From NCBI GenBank assembly GCA_944349635.1, contig CALVNH010000007.1, positions 1 to 49,054 of the forward strand: DNA of 49,054 nt, given 5' to 3'. Source of the stretch: an uncultured Clostridia bacterium. GTDB taxonomy: Bacteria; Bacillota; Clostridia; Christensenellales; CAG-917. Below, in pieces: positions 6,925 through 14,044 of the stretch (positions are counted from its first letter, which is position 1; each line of letters opens with the position of its first letter). The notes under the pieces are model-generated. The model had not been told where the DNA came from and made no database searches. It saw nothing but the letters and a program-made list of their open reading frames with translations. The position numbers and the translations under genes were made by a program.

Positions 6925-7356
6925 CTAGACGTCCAGCCACATCACCAGAGCGTCGTACATGTTGTTGTAGTACCTCTTACGTATTCCGGCCGCCTTGAAT
7001 CCGAACCCCTCGTACATGGATATTGCGGGCAGATTCGTGGTTTTAACTTCCAAAGTGACGTGTTTAACTCCCTTTTCGCGCGCTTTTGCCAGCAACGTCG
7101 CCATAAGGAATTTGCCTATTCCTCTGCCGCGTTCGCCCTTTTTCACTGCGATGTTGGTAATGTGAGCCTCGTCCAGCACGGTATGGAAACCGCCGTAACA
7201 AATCACCTCGTCGCCTCTCGTACCAACAATATATGTCGCGTCCTCGCAGTTGAGTTCGGGAATGAACATATTTTCCGTCCACGGCATGTCGAAAGCCTCT
7301 TTCTCGATTTCCGCCATCTGCCGCAGATGTTCGAATCGCAGGGGTTCAAATCTCAT
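6925..7356 (-). CDS. rimI: Ribosomal protein S18-alanine N-acetyltransferase
   Basis: A 143-residue GNAT acetyltransferase with the acetyl-CoA loop RGRGIG (near residue 76) and the ITNIAV and SMYEGFGF strands typical of RimI. RimI acetylates the N-terminal alanine of ribosomal protein S18. The first 11 bases overlap the end of tsaB, and GGAGAGG precedes the start. tsaE-tsaB-rimI is a classic gene order in Firmicutes, which supports the call over other GNAT enzymes. Confidence 0.9.
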   Translation of the reverse strand: MRFEPLRFEHLRQMAEIEKEAFDMPWTENMFIPELNCEDATYIVGTRGDEVICYGGFHTVLDEAHITNIAVKKGERGRGIGKFLMATLLAKAREKGVKHVTLEVKTTNLPAISMYEGFGFKAAGIRKRYYNNMYDALVMWLDV

Positions 7357-7930
7357 CTCTGTTCCTCTCCGCCTGCGACTTTCTCATATAATAAGGACGG
7401 AAAACATCCGTGAATTCGCCTCGCTCCGCCTTGCGAAGAGCTATTTCCGCAAAAACATCCGCCGTAGGTCCGAGAGGTGAAAACAGGAATTTCTCGCCCC
7501 TCTTTTCGGCTTGCGCGCGCTCCTCCGCCGTCAGGAAGAAATCCTCCCGCACAGACCCGTTCGTGCAATGTGCGGCATAAAGATTGCCATGCCCCGCTTC
7601 CACCGCGGCGGTGACGTCCTGTCTGCCGTGCGAGATTATCTCGAAAGCCGTGACGGCAATCCTTTTCGCGCCCGTGGCCTGGCAGAATGCCGTTGCCGTT
7701 GCGGCTCCTATTCTGATGCCCGTAAACGACCCCGGTCCCGTGACGAGAGCCACGGCGTCGACTGATGAAACGTCCGTGCCCGCTTCTTTCAGCACCGCGT
7801 CCGTGACGGACAGCAAAACCGCAGTATGTCCGCTTTTGCCGACGTCGAGAGAACGGACGGCTTTTCTGCCGTCCGCGACAAATACCACGGTCAGTATGTT
7901 GGAAGTGGTGTCAATGCAAAGACAATTCAT
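7346..7930 (-). CDS. tsaB: tRNA threonylcarbamoyladenosine biosynthesis protein TsaB
   Basis: A 194-residue member of the ASKHA-fold TsaB family. N-terminal LCIDTTSNILTVV, the SVDAVALVTGPGSFTGIRIG signature (about residues 57-76) and VEAGHGNLYAA are diagnostic. TsaB is the inactive Kae1-like partner of TsaD in the complex that makes t6A37 in ANN-decoding tRNAs. It follows the TsaE-containing fusion by 59 bases and overlaps rimI. The Shine-Dalgarno is weak, so translation may be coupled to the upstream gene. Confidence 0.92.
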   Translation of the reverse strand: MNCLCIDTTSNILTVVFVADGRKAVRSLDVGKSGHTAVLLSVTDAVLKEAGTDVSSVDAVALVTGPGSFTGIRIGAATATAFCQATGAKRIAVTAFEIISHGRQDVTAAVEAGHGNLYAAHCTNGSVREDFFLTAEERAQAEKRGEKFLFSPLGPTADVFAEIALRKAERGEFTDVFRPYYMRKSQAERNRDEI

Positions 7931-7989: not shown

Positions 7990-9138
7990 TCAGGCCTGCC
8001 CTTTCTCTATTGCGATTTTGGCAGGTGCCGTCCGCTCTTTTTTGATTTTTTCTTTTTTACCGTGCGGTTTGTGTTCCGCGCTGTCGGAAATCTCGAAAAT
8101 TCTGCAATTATCGTCCCCGCCGGTTATTTTGACATCTATGACGCGTCCTGTCAAGTTTTGAAGTTTATTCCATTCCACCACTTTGACGGCGTTTTGCGGA
8201 ATGGTCTCTTCGAAGCCCAGTTCTTCCGTTTCGCTTTCGTCCTCGATGCGGTACATATCAAGGTGATACAGAGGCAAACGCCCGTCCTCGTACACGTTCA
8301 TAACCGTAAACGTGGGGCTGGTAACCTCTTCCTCGACGCCCAGTGCCGCCGCAAGTCCTTTCGCGAACGTGGTCTTGCCCGCGCCCAAATCTCCCGAGAG
8401 CAACACGGTTTCTCCGCCTTTGAGTGTGTTTGCGACCTTCTTTGCCAGTTCGAAAGTCTCCTCTTCGCTGTCGCTCTCGTAAACACCCGACAATCTGTGA
8501 ATCAAAGATGAGCCCTCCCAATGCAGAATTGCGCTGAGTTTCTTGTAAAGCAGGAATGTAAGCAAAGACATTATCGCGCAACGGAGCAGGTTGAAAGGCA
8601 CGATTCCCAGACCGAGATAGAAAGCATAGAAAGTGTCTGCGGTTGCGTTGGGATAAAGTGCGCTGCACACTCCGACTATTGCGTTGAAATTTCCGCCGAA
8701 ATAGAGCTCCGTATAAAAATGAATGGAGATGAAGCGATTGACGACCACCGCGACGACAACCGTAAGAATCGTGCTCGCGGTCAATCCCAACGCCGCGTGC
8801 TTCTTATCCTTTTTGAACATGTAGATAAGCGACGCGGGCAATACTATGACTATGCCCAGCAACATATCGGTGAGTTCCCCGACAAACGCCGTACTCGTGA
8901 GCGGGAATTTCAAAAGGCACTTGAAAACCACGACGAGCACACCGGCAACCGGTCCCATGGAAAAGCCGGCAAGCAAGGCAGGCAGTTCGGAAAACTGCAT
9001 TTCCAAAAACGAGGGGAACATTATCGGCAGATTGAATTTGGCAAGGTACAGCGCAAAGGACAGCGCGGTGAGCAAAGCCAGTTTTGCGACGTAAGCCGCC
9101 GACATTCTGAAAGTGATTGTTTTGTTTCCGATTTGCAT
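7990..9138 (-). CDS. Riboflavin ECF transporter S component fused to TsaE ATPase
   Basis: A single uninterrupted frame of 382 residues. Residues 1-206 are hydrophobic helices with FPSFLEMQFSELPALLAGF and GPVAGVLVVVFKCLLK, marks of RibU, the substrate-binding subunit of ECF riboflavin transporters. After a linker (207-222), residues 223-352 are TsaE: Walker A SGDLGAGKTTFAKG (about 248-261), VTSPTFTVMNVYE, YHLDMYRI and VVEW. TsaE is the ATPase that drives t6A synthesis. A basic tail (353-382) follows. The start is ATG 9138 behind AAGGAGAAAGT; a longer frame would begin inside the riboswitch. An FMN riboswitch and terminator precede it, and tsaB-rimI follow. RibU's cytoplasmic C-terminus would place TsaE correctly. 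Confidence 0.9.
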   Translation of the reverse strand: MQIGNKTITFRMSAAYVAKLALLTALSFALYLAKFNLPIMFPSFLEMQFSELPALLAGFSMGPVAGVLVVVFKCLLKFPLTSTAFVGELTDMLLGIVIVLPASLIYMFKKDKKHAALGLTASTILTVVVAVVVNRFISIHFYTELYFGGNFNAIVGVCSALYPNATADTFYAFYLGLGIVPFNLLRCAIMSLLTFLLYKKLSAILHWEGSSLIHRLSGVYESDSEEETFELAKKVANTLKGGETVLLSGDLGAGKTTFAKGLAAALGVEEEVTSPTFTVMNVYEDGRLPLYHLDMYRIEDESETEELGFEETIPQNAVKVVEWNKLQNLTGRVIDVKITGGDDNCRIFEISDSAEHKPHGKKEKIKKERTAPAKIAIEKGQA

Positions 9139-9160
9139 ACTTTCTCCTTCCGGGGCCGAC

Positions 9161-9188
9161 AAAAAAGCCCCGATATACAAATCGGGGC
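9161..9188 (-). terminator. Riboswitch expression-platform terminator
   Basis: On the minus strand a perfect eight-base stem (9188-9181 with 9174-9167) with a six-base loop is followed by six U residues (9166-9161). It lies between the FMN aptamer and the ribU-tsaE start, as expected for transcriptional attenuation by FMN. Confidence 0.9.
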
Positions 9189-9200
9189 GCGAAAAACGAG

Positions 9201-9319
9201 AATCCGCTTCTTTCATCCGGACTGTACCGTCGGTACGGGAATTTCACCCGTTCGGCTTGCAAAGCAAGTTCGCGGACTTTAACCGCCGGTGAGGAATTGC
9301 ACCTCGCCCCGAAGCAATC
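9201..9319 (-). promoter_or_regulatory. FMN riboswitch (RFN element)
   Basis: The minus strand shows the conserved RFN core. P1 is formed by GATTGCTTC (9319-9311) with GAAGCGGATT (9210-9201). CTTCGGGGCGAGGTG and CCTCACCGGCGGT follow, then AGTCCGCGA, GGTGAAATTCCCG, ACCGACGGT and AGTCCGGATG. FMN binding by this element normally favours the downstream terminator, so high flavin should shut off ribU-tsaE and perhaps the rest of the operon. Its promoter is at 9322-9350. Confidence 0.96.
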
Positions 9320-9321
9320 TC

Positions 9322-9350
9322 ATAATATTACCTCGACGCTGAAATGTCAA
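9322..9350 (-). promoter_or_regulatory. Promoter of the riboswitch-ribU-tsaE operon
   Basis: Perfect TTGACA (minus strand, 9350-9345), 17-base spacer, TATTAT (9327-9322). Transcription would start just before P1 of the FMN aptamer, which fits well. Confidence 0.85.
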
Positions 9351-10188: not shown

Positions 10189-10209
10189 AGTATAAAATAA
10201 GAGGTGATT

Positions 10210-10923
10210 ATGGACAAATTCCGCGTTATCGAAATCAAAGAAAGCGTTTTCGCCGACAACAACGCCGACGCGGCGGAACTCAGAAACACCCTGAAAAAAC
10301 AAGGGACTTTTCTGCTCAATCTGATGTCGTCTCCAGGTTCCGGCAAAACCACTCTGCTCAAACGCACGATAGGAGAACTCAAAGGCGAGATGAACATCGC
10401 CGTGCTGGAAGCGGACATCGACTCCGACGTGGACGCCCGCACGGTTTCCGAAGCGGGAGCCAAAGCCATACAGTTGCACACGGGCGGCATGTGCCATCTG
10501 ACTGCTTCGATGACGCGTCAGGGCGTGGAGGAAATCGGACTCGACGGTATCGACCTTGCCATACTCGAAAACGTGGGCAACCTGGTGTGCCCTGCCGAAT
10601 TCGACACGGGCGCTTGCAAAAACGCGATGATACTGAGCGTGCCCGAAGGCGACGACAAGCCTTTGAAATATCCGCTTATGTTTTCGATATGCGACGTTCT
10701 CGTCATCAACAAAATTGACGTCGCACCCTACTTCGACTTCGATTTCGAAGCCTGCAAGGAACGCGCAAAGAAGCTGAATCCCGCCATTGAAATAATCACT
10801 CTTTCCGGCAAGACGGGAGAAGGTTTCGGGACTTGGACGGAATGGCTCCGCAAGTCCGTGAAAGAATGGAAATCCGCCGCTGGCGTGGGCGACAACGCCT
10901 TCGTCAGGTACGGCAGAAAATAG
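10210..10923 (+). CDS. hypB: Nickel-insertion GTPase HypB
   Basis: SIMIBI-class GTPase of 237 residues. P-loop MSSPGSGKTTLL lies near residue 42, EADIDSDVDA follows, and GGMCHLTASM carries the Cys-His metal site at the dimer interface. ENVGNLVCPAEFD and the NKID guanine motif complete the family signature. HypB with HypA delivers nickel to NiFe hydrogenase (and in some bacteria urease). It lacks the N-terminal CxxCGC or His-rich stretch seen in some homologues. ATG 10210 follows AGAGGTG; a GTG two codons earlier sits inside that site. It is 21 bases upstream of the flavoprotein gene. No hydrogenase structural gene or hypCDEF is in the window. Confidence 0.95.
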   Translation: MDKFRVIEIKESVFADNNADAAELRNTLKKQGTFLLNLMSSPGSGKTTLLKRTIGELKGEMNIAVLEADIDSDVDARTVSEAGAKAIQLHTGGMCHLTASMTRQGVEEIGLDGIDLAILENVGNLVCPAEFDTGACKNAMILSVPEGDDKPLKYPLMFSICDVLVINKIDVAPYFDFDFEACKERAKKLNPAIEIITLSGKTGEGFGTWTEWLRKSVKEWKSAAGVGDNAFVRYGRK

Positions 10924-10944
10924 AACAAATTACAGAGGGTTACT

Positions 10945-13638
10945 ATGGCATTGAGAAAGAAAATCGTCAAACTTGCTAAACTCGCAGGCGGCACCGCGGG
11001 TATGCTCAACAAAATCGACGAGAACGCACCCGAGTACTACGCGCTCGAATGTTGCGTTACCGACGAAGAAGCGGACGCGGCGTGTCTGCTGAAATGGAGA
11101 ACGGAAACGCCTATATCCGAACTGCAGAAACGCGGACAGGCAAAGCTGGGCTTCTCTCCCGAAAAGACATATTCTCTCCTGCTCGGACTCGCTCAGAAAG
11201 GCGTTCTCCGCGTCAACAAGAACGAAAAAGGCGAGGATTGCTTCTTCATCCAGACCTTTGCTCCCGGCATTCTTGAAATGCTGGTCGGCAACAAGGAACT
11301 GGTCGAGAAATATCCGCAGATTGCCCGTGCATTCGAGGAATACACCCGCATAAGAATGGCAACGTTGTCCCCCATGCTTCCCCAAGGCACGGGACTTATG
11401 CGCGTCATCCCCATCGAGAAAACCATTGACGGCAACTCGCAGGTCATGGACGTCGAAAGACTGAGCTACTACATAGACAAGTACGACATCTATTCAGTCG
11501 CTCCCTGCTCCTGCCGCCGTACGCGCCGTATGCTCGGCGAAGGTTGCGGACACCTCGAACACGACATGTGCATTCAGATGGGTAAAGGTGCGGAATATTT
11601 CATCCGCATGGGCAGAGCCCGTCAGATAACCAAAGAGGAAGTGTACGAAATTCTCCGCAAAGCCGAAGAAAACGGCCTCATGCACGAAATTCCCAACATC
11701 GACGGCACCGGCAATACGGTTGCAATCTGCAACTGCTGCTCGTGCTCTTGCTTCGGTCTGCGCGTCGCCACTCTGTTCGGAGGATACCGCGTTGTCGCCA
11801 GCAACTATCATTCCGCCGTCGACAAAGAGAAATGCGTGGCTTGCGGACAGTGCGTCGAAACCTGCCCCACCAACGCGCTCAAACTCGGTCAGAAACTCTG
11901 CACCAAGACTCCTCTCAAAGAAGAAAAATACGACCGCGTCGTCGATTCCGTGTGGAATAAGTCCAAGTGGAACGTCGACTACCGTACCAACAAAGAGGAC
12001 GTCGTCGAAACCGGTACCGCGCCCTGCAAGACCAAGTGTCCCGCACACATCGCGGTTCAGGGTTACATCAAATTCGCCGCACAGGGCAAATACGACGAAG
12101 CTCTCGAACTCATAAAGAAGGAAAATCCCCTTCCCGCAGTCTGCGGCAGAATTTGCAACCACGCTTGCGAAGACGCCTGCACACGCGGTCAAATCGACCA
12201 GCCCATCGCCATCGACGAAATCAAGAAGTTCATCGCCGAACGCGAACTCAAAAAAGAGACCCGCTTCATTCCCAAGAAGATGCACGACTATTCCGACAAG
12301 AAGATAGCCGTCATCGGCAGCGGTCCCGCCGGTCTTTCCTGCGCTTATTATCTCGCCATCGACAACTACTCCGTCACCGTTTTCGAAAAGGAGAACAAAC
12401 TCGGCGGTATGTTGACTTTGGGCATCCCCTCCTTCCGTCTCGAAAAGGACGTCGTCGACGCGGAAATCAGCGTGTTGAAGGACATGGGTGTCGAGTTCAA
12501 GACCGGCATCGAAGTCGGCAAGGACGTCACGTTGGACGAACTGCGCAAGCAGGGCTATAAAGGCTTCTACATCGCAATCGGTGCACAGGGCGGCAGAAGC
12601 ATCGGCGTCGAAGGCGAAGACGCCAAGGGCGTTATCGCCGGTATCGATTTCCTGCGCAACGTCAACTCCGGCAAACCCAGCGGCATAAGCGGCAAAGTCG
12701 TCGTAATCGGCGGCGGTAACGTCGCAGTCGACGTCGCACGCACCGCAATCCGCGAAAAGACGGAAAGCGTGGGTATGTACTGCCTCGAAAGTGCAAAAGA
12801 AATGCCCGCAAGCCCGGACGAAGTGGAAGAAGCAGTCGCGGAAGGCATCGCCGTCAACAACGGTTGGGGTCCCAAGCGCATTCTCACCGAAAACGGCAAG
12901 GTCGTCGGCGTGGAGTTCAAGAAATGCGTGTCCGTTTATGACGCAAACCGCAAATTCGCTCCCAAATACGACGAAAACGACACCATCACCGTTCCCGCGG
13001 ATTACGTGCTCCTCACCGTCGGTCAGTCCATCATCTGGGGCGACCTCCTCAAAGGCAGTAAGGTCGAACTCAACCGCAACAACACCGCAAAGGCGGACGG
13101 TTTCACCTATCAGACGGCAGAGCCCGACATCTTCGTCGGCGGCGACGTCTACACCGGACCGAAGTTTGCAATCGACGCAATCGCGGCAGGCAAACAGGGT
13201 GCCGTTTCTCTGCACCGCTTCGTACAGCCCGGTCAGAGCCTCGTGCTCGGACGCGACAGACGTCAGTATGTCGAACTCGACAAGGACAACATCGAAGTCG
13301 AAGGCTTCGACAACACCCCGCGTCAGGTTCCCGGCTACGACAAGAGCAAGGACAAGACTTACTCCGACGCGCGTCTTACCTTCACCGAAGAACAGCTCAA
13401 AAAAGAGACGGAACGTTGCCTCGGCTGCGGTGCAACCGTCGTCGACGCTTACAAGTGCATCGGTTGCGGTCTGTGCGTGACGCGTTGCAAGTTCGACGCA
13501 ATCCACATGGAGCACAACGACGAAAACTTCTTCTCCAAGAAACTGGAAAGCCTGCCCTTCCGCGCCGTCGGTTACGCCGTCAAGCGTGCGGGCAAAATCA
13601 CCTCGAAGAGCATCAAAGACGCATTCGTCAAAAAATAA
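10945..13638 (+). CDS. Large Fe-S flavoprotein with GltD-like NAD(P)H oxidoreductase core
   Basis: 897 cytoplasmic residues. N-terminal part: a winged-helix-like segment (56-90), a Cys cluster APCSCRR/GCGH/MC (188-209) and CNCCSCSC (262-269). Then a ferredoxin motif CVACGQCVETCP (297-308) and the two Fe-S clusters of the GltD/NfnB family (Cys 361-412). An FAD Rossmann (GSGPAG, 458-463), an NAD(P) Rossmann (GGGNVA, 589-594), the FVGGDV flavin motif and a C-terminal CIGCGLCVTRC ferredoxin follow. It should pass electrons between NAD(P)H and a ferredoxin-like partner. It lies between hypB and hypA, so a hydrogen- or nickel-linked role is likely but unproven. GAGGGTTACT precedes the ATG. Codon bias suggests very high expression. 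Confidence 0.85.
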   Translation: MALRKKIVKLAKLAGGTAGMLNKIDENAPEYYALECCVTDEEADAACLLKWRTETPISELQKRGQAKLGFSPEKTYSLLLGLAQKGVLRVNKNEKGEDCFFIQTFAPGILEMLVGNKELVEKYPQIARAFEEYTRIRMATLSPMLPQGTGLMRVIPIEKTIDGNSQVMDVERLSYYIDKYDIYSVAPCSCRRTRRMLGEGCGHLEHDMCIQMGKGAEYFIRMGRARQITKEEVYEILRKAEENGLMHEIPNIDGTGNTVAICNCCSCSCFGLRVATLFGGYRVVASNYHSAVDKEKCVACGQCVETCPTNALKLGQKLCTKTPLKEEKYDRVVDSVWNKSKWNVDYRTNKEDVVETGTAPCKTKCPAHIAVQGYIKFAAQGKYDEALELIKKENPLPAVCGRICNHACEDACTRGQIDQPIAIDEIKKFIAERELKKETRFIPKKMHDYSDKKIAVIGSGPAGLSCAYYLAIDNYSVTVFEKENKLGGMLTLGIPSFRLEKDVVDAEISVLKDMGVEFKTGIEVGKDVTLDELRKQGYKGFYIAIGAQGGRSIGVEGEDAKGVIAGIDFLRNVNSGKPSGISGKVVVIGGGNVAVDVARTAIREKTESVGMYCLESAKEMPASPDEVEEAVAEGIAVNNGWGPKRILTENGKVVGVEFKKCVSVYDANRKFAPKYDENDTITVPADYVLLTVGQSIIWGDLLKGSKVELNRNNTAKADGFTYQTAEPDIFVGGDVYTGPKFAIDAIAAGKQGAVSLHRFVQPGQSLVLGRDRRQYVELDKDNIEVEGFDNTPRQVPGYDKSKDKTYSDARLTFTEEQLKKETERCLGCGATVVDAYKCIGCGLCVTRCKFDAIHMEHNDENFFSKKLESLPFRAVGYAVKRAGKITSKSIKDAFVKK

Positions 13639-13660
13639 CATAACCGCTTAACGTGCGTAC

Positions 13661-13681
13661 GACGGGGGCACCACCCCCGTC
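13661..13681 (+). other. Stable intercistronic hairpin without U-tract
   Basis: A perfect eight-base GC-rich stem (13661-13668 with 13674-13681) and five-base loop lies between the flavoprotein and hypA genes. No T-run follows, so it is not a standard terminator. It may protect the 3-prime end of the abundant flavoprotein message or lower hypA expression. Confidence 0.6.
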
Positions 13682-13702
13682 GGTATCGCAATGAGGAAAA
13701 CT

Positions 13703-14044
13703 ATGCACGAACTTGGTCTGCTTGCCGAAATAGTCGATAAAATCGAAGCAGTGGCAAAAGAAAACAACGTAACCGAAATCGAAAAGCTGGTGCTCGACGT
13801 CGGCGAGTATTCGGGCGTCGTTCCCGAATATGTCGAAACGAGTTACCCCGCCGTCATAGGCGGCACCATGCTCGAAAACACTAAGTTGCAGATGAACATC
13901 ATAAAAGGCGTGGCGTTCTGTCACTCCTGCAAAAAGAAGTTCGACATTAAGGGCAACGAACAGAGATGCCCTTATTGCGGCTCGCAGGAATGCGAAGTCG
14001 TCGAGGGCGGCGAATTCATCATCAAAGAAATTGTTGCGCGATAA
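13703..14044 (+). CDS. hypA: Hydrogenase nickel-incorporation protein HypA
   Basis: 113 residues beginning Met-His-Glu, the N-terminal nickel ligand set of HypA. The zinc site has two CxxC pairs (CHSC and CPYC, about 20 residues apart). I choose ATG 13703, not 13691, because nickel binding needs MHE at the very N-terminus and because the upstream ATGAGG then supplies the ribosome-binding site. HypA hands nickel to the large hydrogenase subunit together with HypB, encoded two genes upstream. Confidence 0.95.
   Translation: MHELGLLAEIVDKIEAVAKENNVTEIEKLVLDVGEYSGVVPEYVETSYPAVIGGTMLENTKLQMNIIKGVAFCHSCKKKFDIKGNEQRCPYCGSQECEVVEGGEFIIKEIVAR

Follow-up and report, generated by a model that had tools for sequence, protein, structure and literature searches.

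On the minus strand of the window, by which the whole analysed stretch of 49,054 nucleotides from an uncultured Clostridia bacterium is meant, a promoter, an FMN riboswitch and a terminator precede one reading frame that joins ribU to tsaE, and this frame is followed by tsaB and rimI (Table 1). A preliminary description of the DNA had listed a RibU part and a complete TsaE part in one frame, an RFN element, a terminator, a promoter, tsaB and rimI, and every one of these elements was found. A promoter-like TTGACA-17-CAAAAT is also present at 8154-8126 on the minus strand, within the end of the TsaE part, and possibly serves tsaB.

Table 1. Features of the ribU-tsaE locus, with positions in the window.
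Feature	Position	Strand	Basis
Promoter, sigma-70 type, TTGACA-17-TATTAT	9322..9350	-	Consensus scan, 11/12 matches
FMN riboswitch aptamer (RFN element, RF00050)	9201..9320	-	cmscan, 109.6 bits (gathering score 66.2)
Candidate antiterminator arm CGGGGCG, 5' part of aptamer	9305..9311	-	Read from sequence
Intrinsic terminator GCCCCGATTTGTATATCGGGGC + T6	9167..9188	-	Terminator scan; second scan agrees
Shine-Dalgarno AAGGAG ahead of ATG 9138-9136	9144..9149	-	Sequence
ribU-tsaE fusion gene, 382 aa	7990..9138	-	ORF, family matches, same frame in relatives
RibU-type ECF S component domain, aa 17-198	8545..9090	-	PF12822; 3p5n
Possible internal TsaE translation start, GGGAGGG-7-TTG	8503..8519	-	Layout shared with relatives
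Linker, aa 199-222, without own tsaE promoter	8473..8544	-	Sequence, promoter scans
TsaE ATPase domain; Walker A GDLGAGKT, SPTF, HLDMYR, EW	8113..8472	-	PF02367; invariant residues
tsaB	7346..7930	-	TIGR03725, 98.2 bits (cut-off 69.3)
rimI	6925..7356	-	TIGR01575, 127.9 bits (cut-off 86.4)

The N-terminal half of the protein matched PF12822 with an E-value of 8.6e-22 (78.4 bits; cut-off 30.7), and its nearest sequence in the PDB was 3p5n, 'riboflavin uptake protein' (E 7.3e-18), which we take to be RibU of S. aureus. The score for the NCBIfam folate S-component family stayed below the cut-off (27.2 of 60 bits). Thus, the earlier naming of this half as RibU was borne out by the PF12822 and 3p5n matches, as far as family assignment goes. 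A crude hydropathy scan and lysine-rich stretches (KKDKKH in a loop, and YKK behind the final membrane helix) fit a cytoplasmic C terminus.

The C-terminal half matched PF02367 at residues 223-341 (E 1.8e-37) and the equivalog TIGR00150 with 118.2 bits (cut-off 60.1), and the nearest PDB sequence was the TsaE 5mvr (E 7.5e-27). The P-loop G-GK-T (Walker A), SPT, H-D-YR and EW, the motif residues of TsaE, were invariant in 39 of 39 fused proteins; SPTF, HxDxYR and EW were kept in all eight fusions added later, and the P-loop of the fusion in genome G911 reads GDLGVGKT. With both families matched, TIGR00150 over its cut-off, and the motifs kept, the TsaE half was as complete as had been proposed. 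The median dN/dS in the window's genus was 0.11 for RibU (25 pairs) and 0.13 for TsaE (44 pairs), values that are rough since dS was near or above 1. Judged from its sequence, the TsaE domain of the fusion looks active.

Aptamer and terminator, the latter serving as the expression platform, make up an FMN riboswitch whose switching is predicted from the sequence, in line with the control by FMN that the preliminary description had put forward. The arm CGGGGCG is the exact 7-nt complement of CGCCCCG (9189-9183), the first arm of the terminator, and the pairing of the two is a candidate antiterminator. Folded as a single sequence, the leader was only mildly more stable than its shuffles (z -1.9), which counts against the reading. 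In the family of the window (f1), the riboswitch lies immediately 5' of the fusion in 30 of 32 cases, and in the remaining two (G022 and G030) the contig stops where it would be. Among nine fusions examined outside f1, seven carry it, while none was found at the gathering score in G043 and G797. Among the fused loci whose riboswitch motif was recognised by pattern, 12 of 31 gave no terminator, and the pattern overlooked eight further loci; where none was found, control may be translational, or the terminator may have been missed. In several f1 members, a second, weaker FMN riboswitch stands ahead of another ECF S component, and the frames behind it are too short for TsaE (e.g., G019:C1:387288-387931 and G026:C5:82470-83304).

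Occurrence and origin of the fusion

Joined frames were read in 47 genomes (39 first and eight added later), which belong to a single uncultured order and fall into six families and 16 genera. Family f1 contributed 33 of them, f32 nine, f9 two, and f14, f20 and f24 one each; three of the frames (G022, G025, G030) run to a contig end. All nine relatives of the same genus (9/9) carry the fusion, and in a search of 60 genomes, i.e., the window's own and 59 relatives, a long tsaE frame was found in most of f1. The linkers are 17 to 102 residues long and variable in sequence. In the window's genome (89% complete), the fusion is the only tsaE over the cut-off, and exactly one tsaE over the cut-off was counted in 35 of 36 f1 genomes. 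Genome G033 of the same family (97% complete) gave no tsaE over the cut-off and weak S-component matches only; the missing tsaE and strong S component may reflect an assembly gap. The preliminary description had advised a search of relatives for the fusion and for a second tsaE, and had named two ways in which its reading could fail. A frameshift or assembly error at the junction is contradicted by the joined frame in 47 genomes, and a separate functional tsaE beside a degraded fused domain by the single tsaE with its motifs kept. In most f1 genomes tsaB adjoins tsaE; in G015, no same-strand tsaB follows the fusion. At L037 and L039, one stop-to-stop frame holds tsaB and rimI.

A fusion profile run over 396 genomes of the order returned 43 fusions as counted by eye (29 in f1 and 14 elsewhere), with G030 cut at a contig edge and one stop in the stretch of G092, ahead of the start of the frame as read. 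The 33 f1 genomes in this draw included G028, in which the fusion is split across contigs, and G017, which has separate genes; G033 and G888 gave no fusion match in the profile search. Among 398 genomes of the phylum, the fusion was found in the window's own genome only, and in eight others both halves fell within one stretch interrupted by internal stop codons, i.e., in neighbouring genes. Frame length revealed no further fusion in 138 genomes of the class, with the frames of G229 (290 aa) and G223 (342 aa) left unread. The long tsaE frames of G110, G112, G103, G068, G149, G165 and G079 (220-738 aa) were rejected as fusions, since none of them includes RibU; that of G079 consists mostly of N.

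Beyond the preliminary description, separate riboswitch and tsaE neighbours are common in the order and occur elsewhere in the class. As counted by eye, 38 of 141 genomes of the order have the riboswitch and tsaE on the same strand, 0.6-1.2 kb apart and in separate frames, and 11 more have tsaE divergent from a nearby riboswitch. At the divergent loci L116 and L159-L168, a single short gap holds both the promoter of tsaE and that of the riboswitch. Wherever the DNA of separate-gene members of the order was read, ribU lay between riboswitch and tsaE. The same spacing was seen by eye in 11 genomes of other orders of the class, ribU being observed in between for G230 and G193, and the Cellulosilyticum loci L041-L044 have the order ribU-tsaE-tsaB-rimI. 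At L033-L035, the stop of ribU overlaps the start of tsaE. On sequence comparison, the riboswitch-ribU-tsaE order predates the fusion.

A single origin of the fusion was rejected (AU test on TsaE, p 0.00013; constrained tree 90.6 log units worse). The TsaE tree required six state changes, at least three of them forced by well-supported branches, and with two more rows seven changes, at least four of them forced. For the RibU tree these numbers were nine and at least six, and a weakly supported branch placed the separate genes of G010 among the fused rows. Each distinct sequence was entered a single time, and the six-change tree and the AU test were computed without G028 and G079. Since the fused TsaE domains form no single clade, the trees indicate that the fusion arose several times within the older gene order, a point also absent from the preliminary description; because TsaE is short (125 alignment columns, with many forks open), the number of origins is uncertain.

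Parts of the fusion have been exchanged. In G005 and G008 of the window's genus, RibU is only 28-30% identical to that of the compared congeners, and TsaE is 72-94% identical. Between these two genomes, DNA identity is 94-100% over a stretch that runs roughly from the riboswitch into the early TsaE domain and falls to 62-84% further downstream. This pattern indicates that one cassette, comprising riboswitch, RibU, linker and the start of TsaE, moved without loss of the fusion. At L083 and L086, a riboswitch-RibU-linker cassette was exchanged between two species of the genus, with the breakpoint early in TsaE.

These data bear on the view that the crowding of genes in small genomes produced the fusion as a near-neutral side effect, without regulatory meaning. 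The fusion-bearing genomes measure about 1.0-2.2 Mb and the overlap of ribU and tsaE at L033-L035 is what crowding would produce, but the several origins, the spread over 16 genera and the retention of the fusion when the RibU half was exchanged argue against it, and we consider this view rather unlikely.

Promoters and possible internal starts of tsaE

Unfused tsaE genes often have a promoter of their own. The arrangement TTGCAA-17-TATAAT followed by ATG after about 6 nt was present in 33 of 65 cases, as scored by the -10 element and the start codon, a count that is not blind because the consensus had been derived from unfused examples beforehand. A duplicate of G010, G028 (contig edge) and G079 (N) were left out. 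The same criterion was met by tsaB in 3 of 65 and by rimI in 2 of 62 unfused genomes (Fisher p 2e-9), and in fused genomes by 2 of 38 and 1 of 38, respectively. With a spacing of about 6 nt, the arrangement is that of a leaderless transcript, and the unfused tsaE genes that have it appear to be so transcribed. About half of the unfused tsaE starts that were read have this layout, e.g., those at L005, L095, L129 and L135.

In the f1 fusions, the promoter has been lost: it was absent from all 33 fusions scanned, and the comparison of 33/65 unfused with 0/32 f1 fusions gave a Fisher p of 4.5e-8. It is present in G010 and G017, the f1 members with separate genes. When the scan was loosened, it flagged one f1 fusion, that of G014, in which TTTAAT precedes a TTG within the TsaE domain.

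Other fused genera retain the promoter to different degrees. In genus g88 of family f32, a perfect TTGCAA-17-TATAAT-6-ATG with a leaderless start lies inside the frame, upstream of the TsaE domain, in all five species read (L123, L124 and L195-L197). There it encodes (V/L/F)A(N/K)...VYN..M, and the codons GCA, GTG, TAT and AAT do not vary among the five species; elsewhere in these genes, codons at identical residues agree in 40% (RibU) and 47% (TsaE) of cases. This conservation argues for selection on the DNA and thus points to a working embedded promoter. All three loci read in the fused genus g56 have a weaker TATACT with GTG or ATG, and no match to the promoter was found in G797 and G813. 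The internal promoter that the preliminary description had offered as a means of keeping TsaE up, the alternative being a drop in t6A when flavin is high, was therefore seen in relatives, both unfused (33/65) and in g88 (5/5), and not in the f1 fusions (0/33). Because none of the latter carries one, escape through an internal promoter is unlikely in f1, where the FMN-controlled transcript is probably the sole source of TsaE, mainly as a membrane-attached fusion.

Free TsaE could also arise by internal translation. At the junction, a start codon stands behind a Shine-Dalgarno-like run at an HWEG motif in 13 of 33 f1 fusions, including that of the window. The layout GGGAGGG-7-TTG is found in 9 of 12 fusions of genus g4 and in 3 of 10 in the window's genus. 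In g4, all nine HWEG carriers have TTG, a codon that accounts for 25% of the leucines of these genes; for the window's genus, the figures are three of eight motif carriers and 16%. In part of f1, the same transcript may thus also yield free TsaE by way of an internal start, and such TsaE would leave the membrane yet stay under the riboswitch.

These observations give an alternative in which one gene yields two products, the fusion and a free TsaE, whose source would be either an internal start, under control by FMN, or an internal promoter, beyond that control. The conserved in-frame promoter of g88, the junction starts in f1 and the uniform TTG of g4 speak for two products. However, the f1 fusions lack the own promoter altogether, 11 of 33 lack any ATG, GTG or TTG in the stretch that separates the domains, TTG is used by a minority of the motif carriers in the window's genus, and GGGAGGG is also simply what HWEG residues encode. 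We regard two products as rather unlikely.

Probable riboflavin import and a proposed role of the fusion

Lumazine synthase (RibH), the sole riboflavin-synthesis gene tested, was found in 0 of 36 f1 genomes and in 1 of the 60 genomes searched, all 14 control genomes being positive. EcfT was present in 34 of 36 f1 genomes and in 58 of 60 overall, including the window's genome (PF02361, 152 bits; G000:C1:285214-285879). As lumazine synthase was not found in f1, riboflavin is probably imported there, via an ECF importer.

With somewhat better than even confidence, we favour the following explanation. The locus encodes a genuine two-domain RibU-TsaE protein, which would have originated when the stop codon of ribU disappeared from the older order riboswitch-ribU-tsaE-tsaB-rimI. 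In f1, the own promoter and the ATG of tsaE were subsequently lost, so that TsaE would be made there only from the FMN-riboswitch transcript and mainly in joined form. The N-terminal RibU would bind riboflavin for a shared ECF importer, and the C-terminal TsaE would work on a flexible linker at the cytoplasmic side, serving TsaD-TsaB in making t6A37. Both domains would be active while joined, and no second promoter would be used. TsaE must cycle on and off TsaD-TsaB, and linkers of 17 to 102 residues would fit a tether rather than a rigid coupling. In a cell that imports riboflavin, growth would dilute flavin and keep the switch partly open, so that RibU and TsaE would always be made; upon flavin excess, the dose of TsaE should drop, i.e., its level would depend on FMN. 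The modification t6A is universal and essential in tRNA, and shutting off an essential enzyme by a riboswitch looks costly, which counts against this explanation.

A further-reaching reading holds that t6A formation is gated by flavin, the only TsaE of f1 being a membrane-anchored fusion under the FMN riboswitch, and that the own promoter of tsaE was repeatedly first embedded and then lost. This reading is somewhat less likely than not; by it, tRNA modification may be tied to vitamin supply, and t6A-dependent decoding would track the vitamin B2 status of the cell.

The variability of the linker in length and sequence, expected where it has no rigid function, would also suit a fusion that is cut in the linker after synthesis, so that TsaE becomes soluble and the joining merely serves co-expression. 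However, no common cleavage motif was apparent by eye in the part of the alignment viewed, and we think such cutting quite unlikely. That the TsaE domain was recruited as the ATPase of the transporter and no longer serves tRNA, as its physical link to an ECF S component might suggest, is highly improbable, given that 35 of 36 f1 genomes have no other tsaE over the cut-off and most have tsaB beside it, that the TsaE residues are kept and that EcfT is present.

Relation to known systems

The S-component domain, the riboswitch with its terminator and the EcfT in the genome are shared with ECF-RibU importers under FMN riboswitches, from which the window's protein differs by the additional C-terminal TsaE. 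In comparison with the bacterial TsaE (YjeE) of the TsaD-TsaB-TsaE system, the domain is complete with its motifs and tsaB and rimI are adjacent, but here TsaE is joined to a membrane protein. TsaE is fused to a phosphotransferase in Alphaproteobacteria; this partner is soluble and a riboswitch is absent. In tsaB-rimI fusions a t6A gene is likewise joined to its neighbour, but both partners are soluble, and neither a riboswitch nor a transporter is involved. Such a tsaB-rimI fusion is mentioned in PMC5335608. In the parts consulted of PMC4418817 and PMC3766115, ribU is listed as riboswitch-controlled with no mention of a fusion of this kind, and the portion seen of a review on t6A (PMC9654439) describes fused YrdC and Kae1 domains with no mention of a TsaE fusion. 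The 5TMR receptors, as presented in PMC11109136, similarly attach cytoplasmic modules to a membrane domain with the S-component fold, but are signalling receptors; a word search of that paper did not find TsaE.

The titles and beginnings of abstracts among the literature matches listed, which covered few subscription papers, contain no description of a RibU-TsaE fusion, in agreement with the preliminary description, which knew of no described system joining the two. We know of no earlier case in which the regulation of vitamin import is linked to a universal and essential modification of tRNA, and the proposed role of the fusion, if true, would be the first known tie of this kind. It would also mean that TsaE can function while attached to a membrane protein. 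Relatives at each step, with separate genes, with fused genes and an embedded promoter, and with fused genes without it, would amount to a natural experiment on the surrender of its own promoter by an essential gene.

Elsewhere in the window, at 10204-14044 on the plus strand, lies a row of hypB, a gene for an NAD(P)-binding oxidoreductase and a hypA-like gene (78.7 bits, below the cut-off of 88.1). The oxidoreductase, of 897 residues, is related to the small subunits of glutamate synthase.
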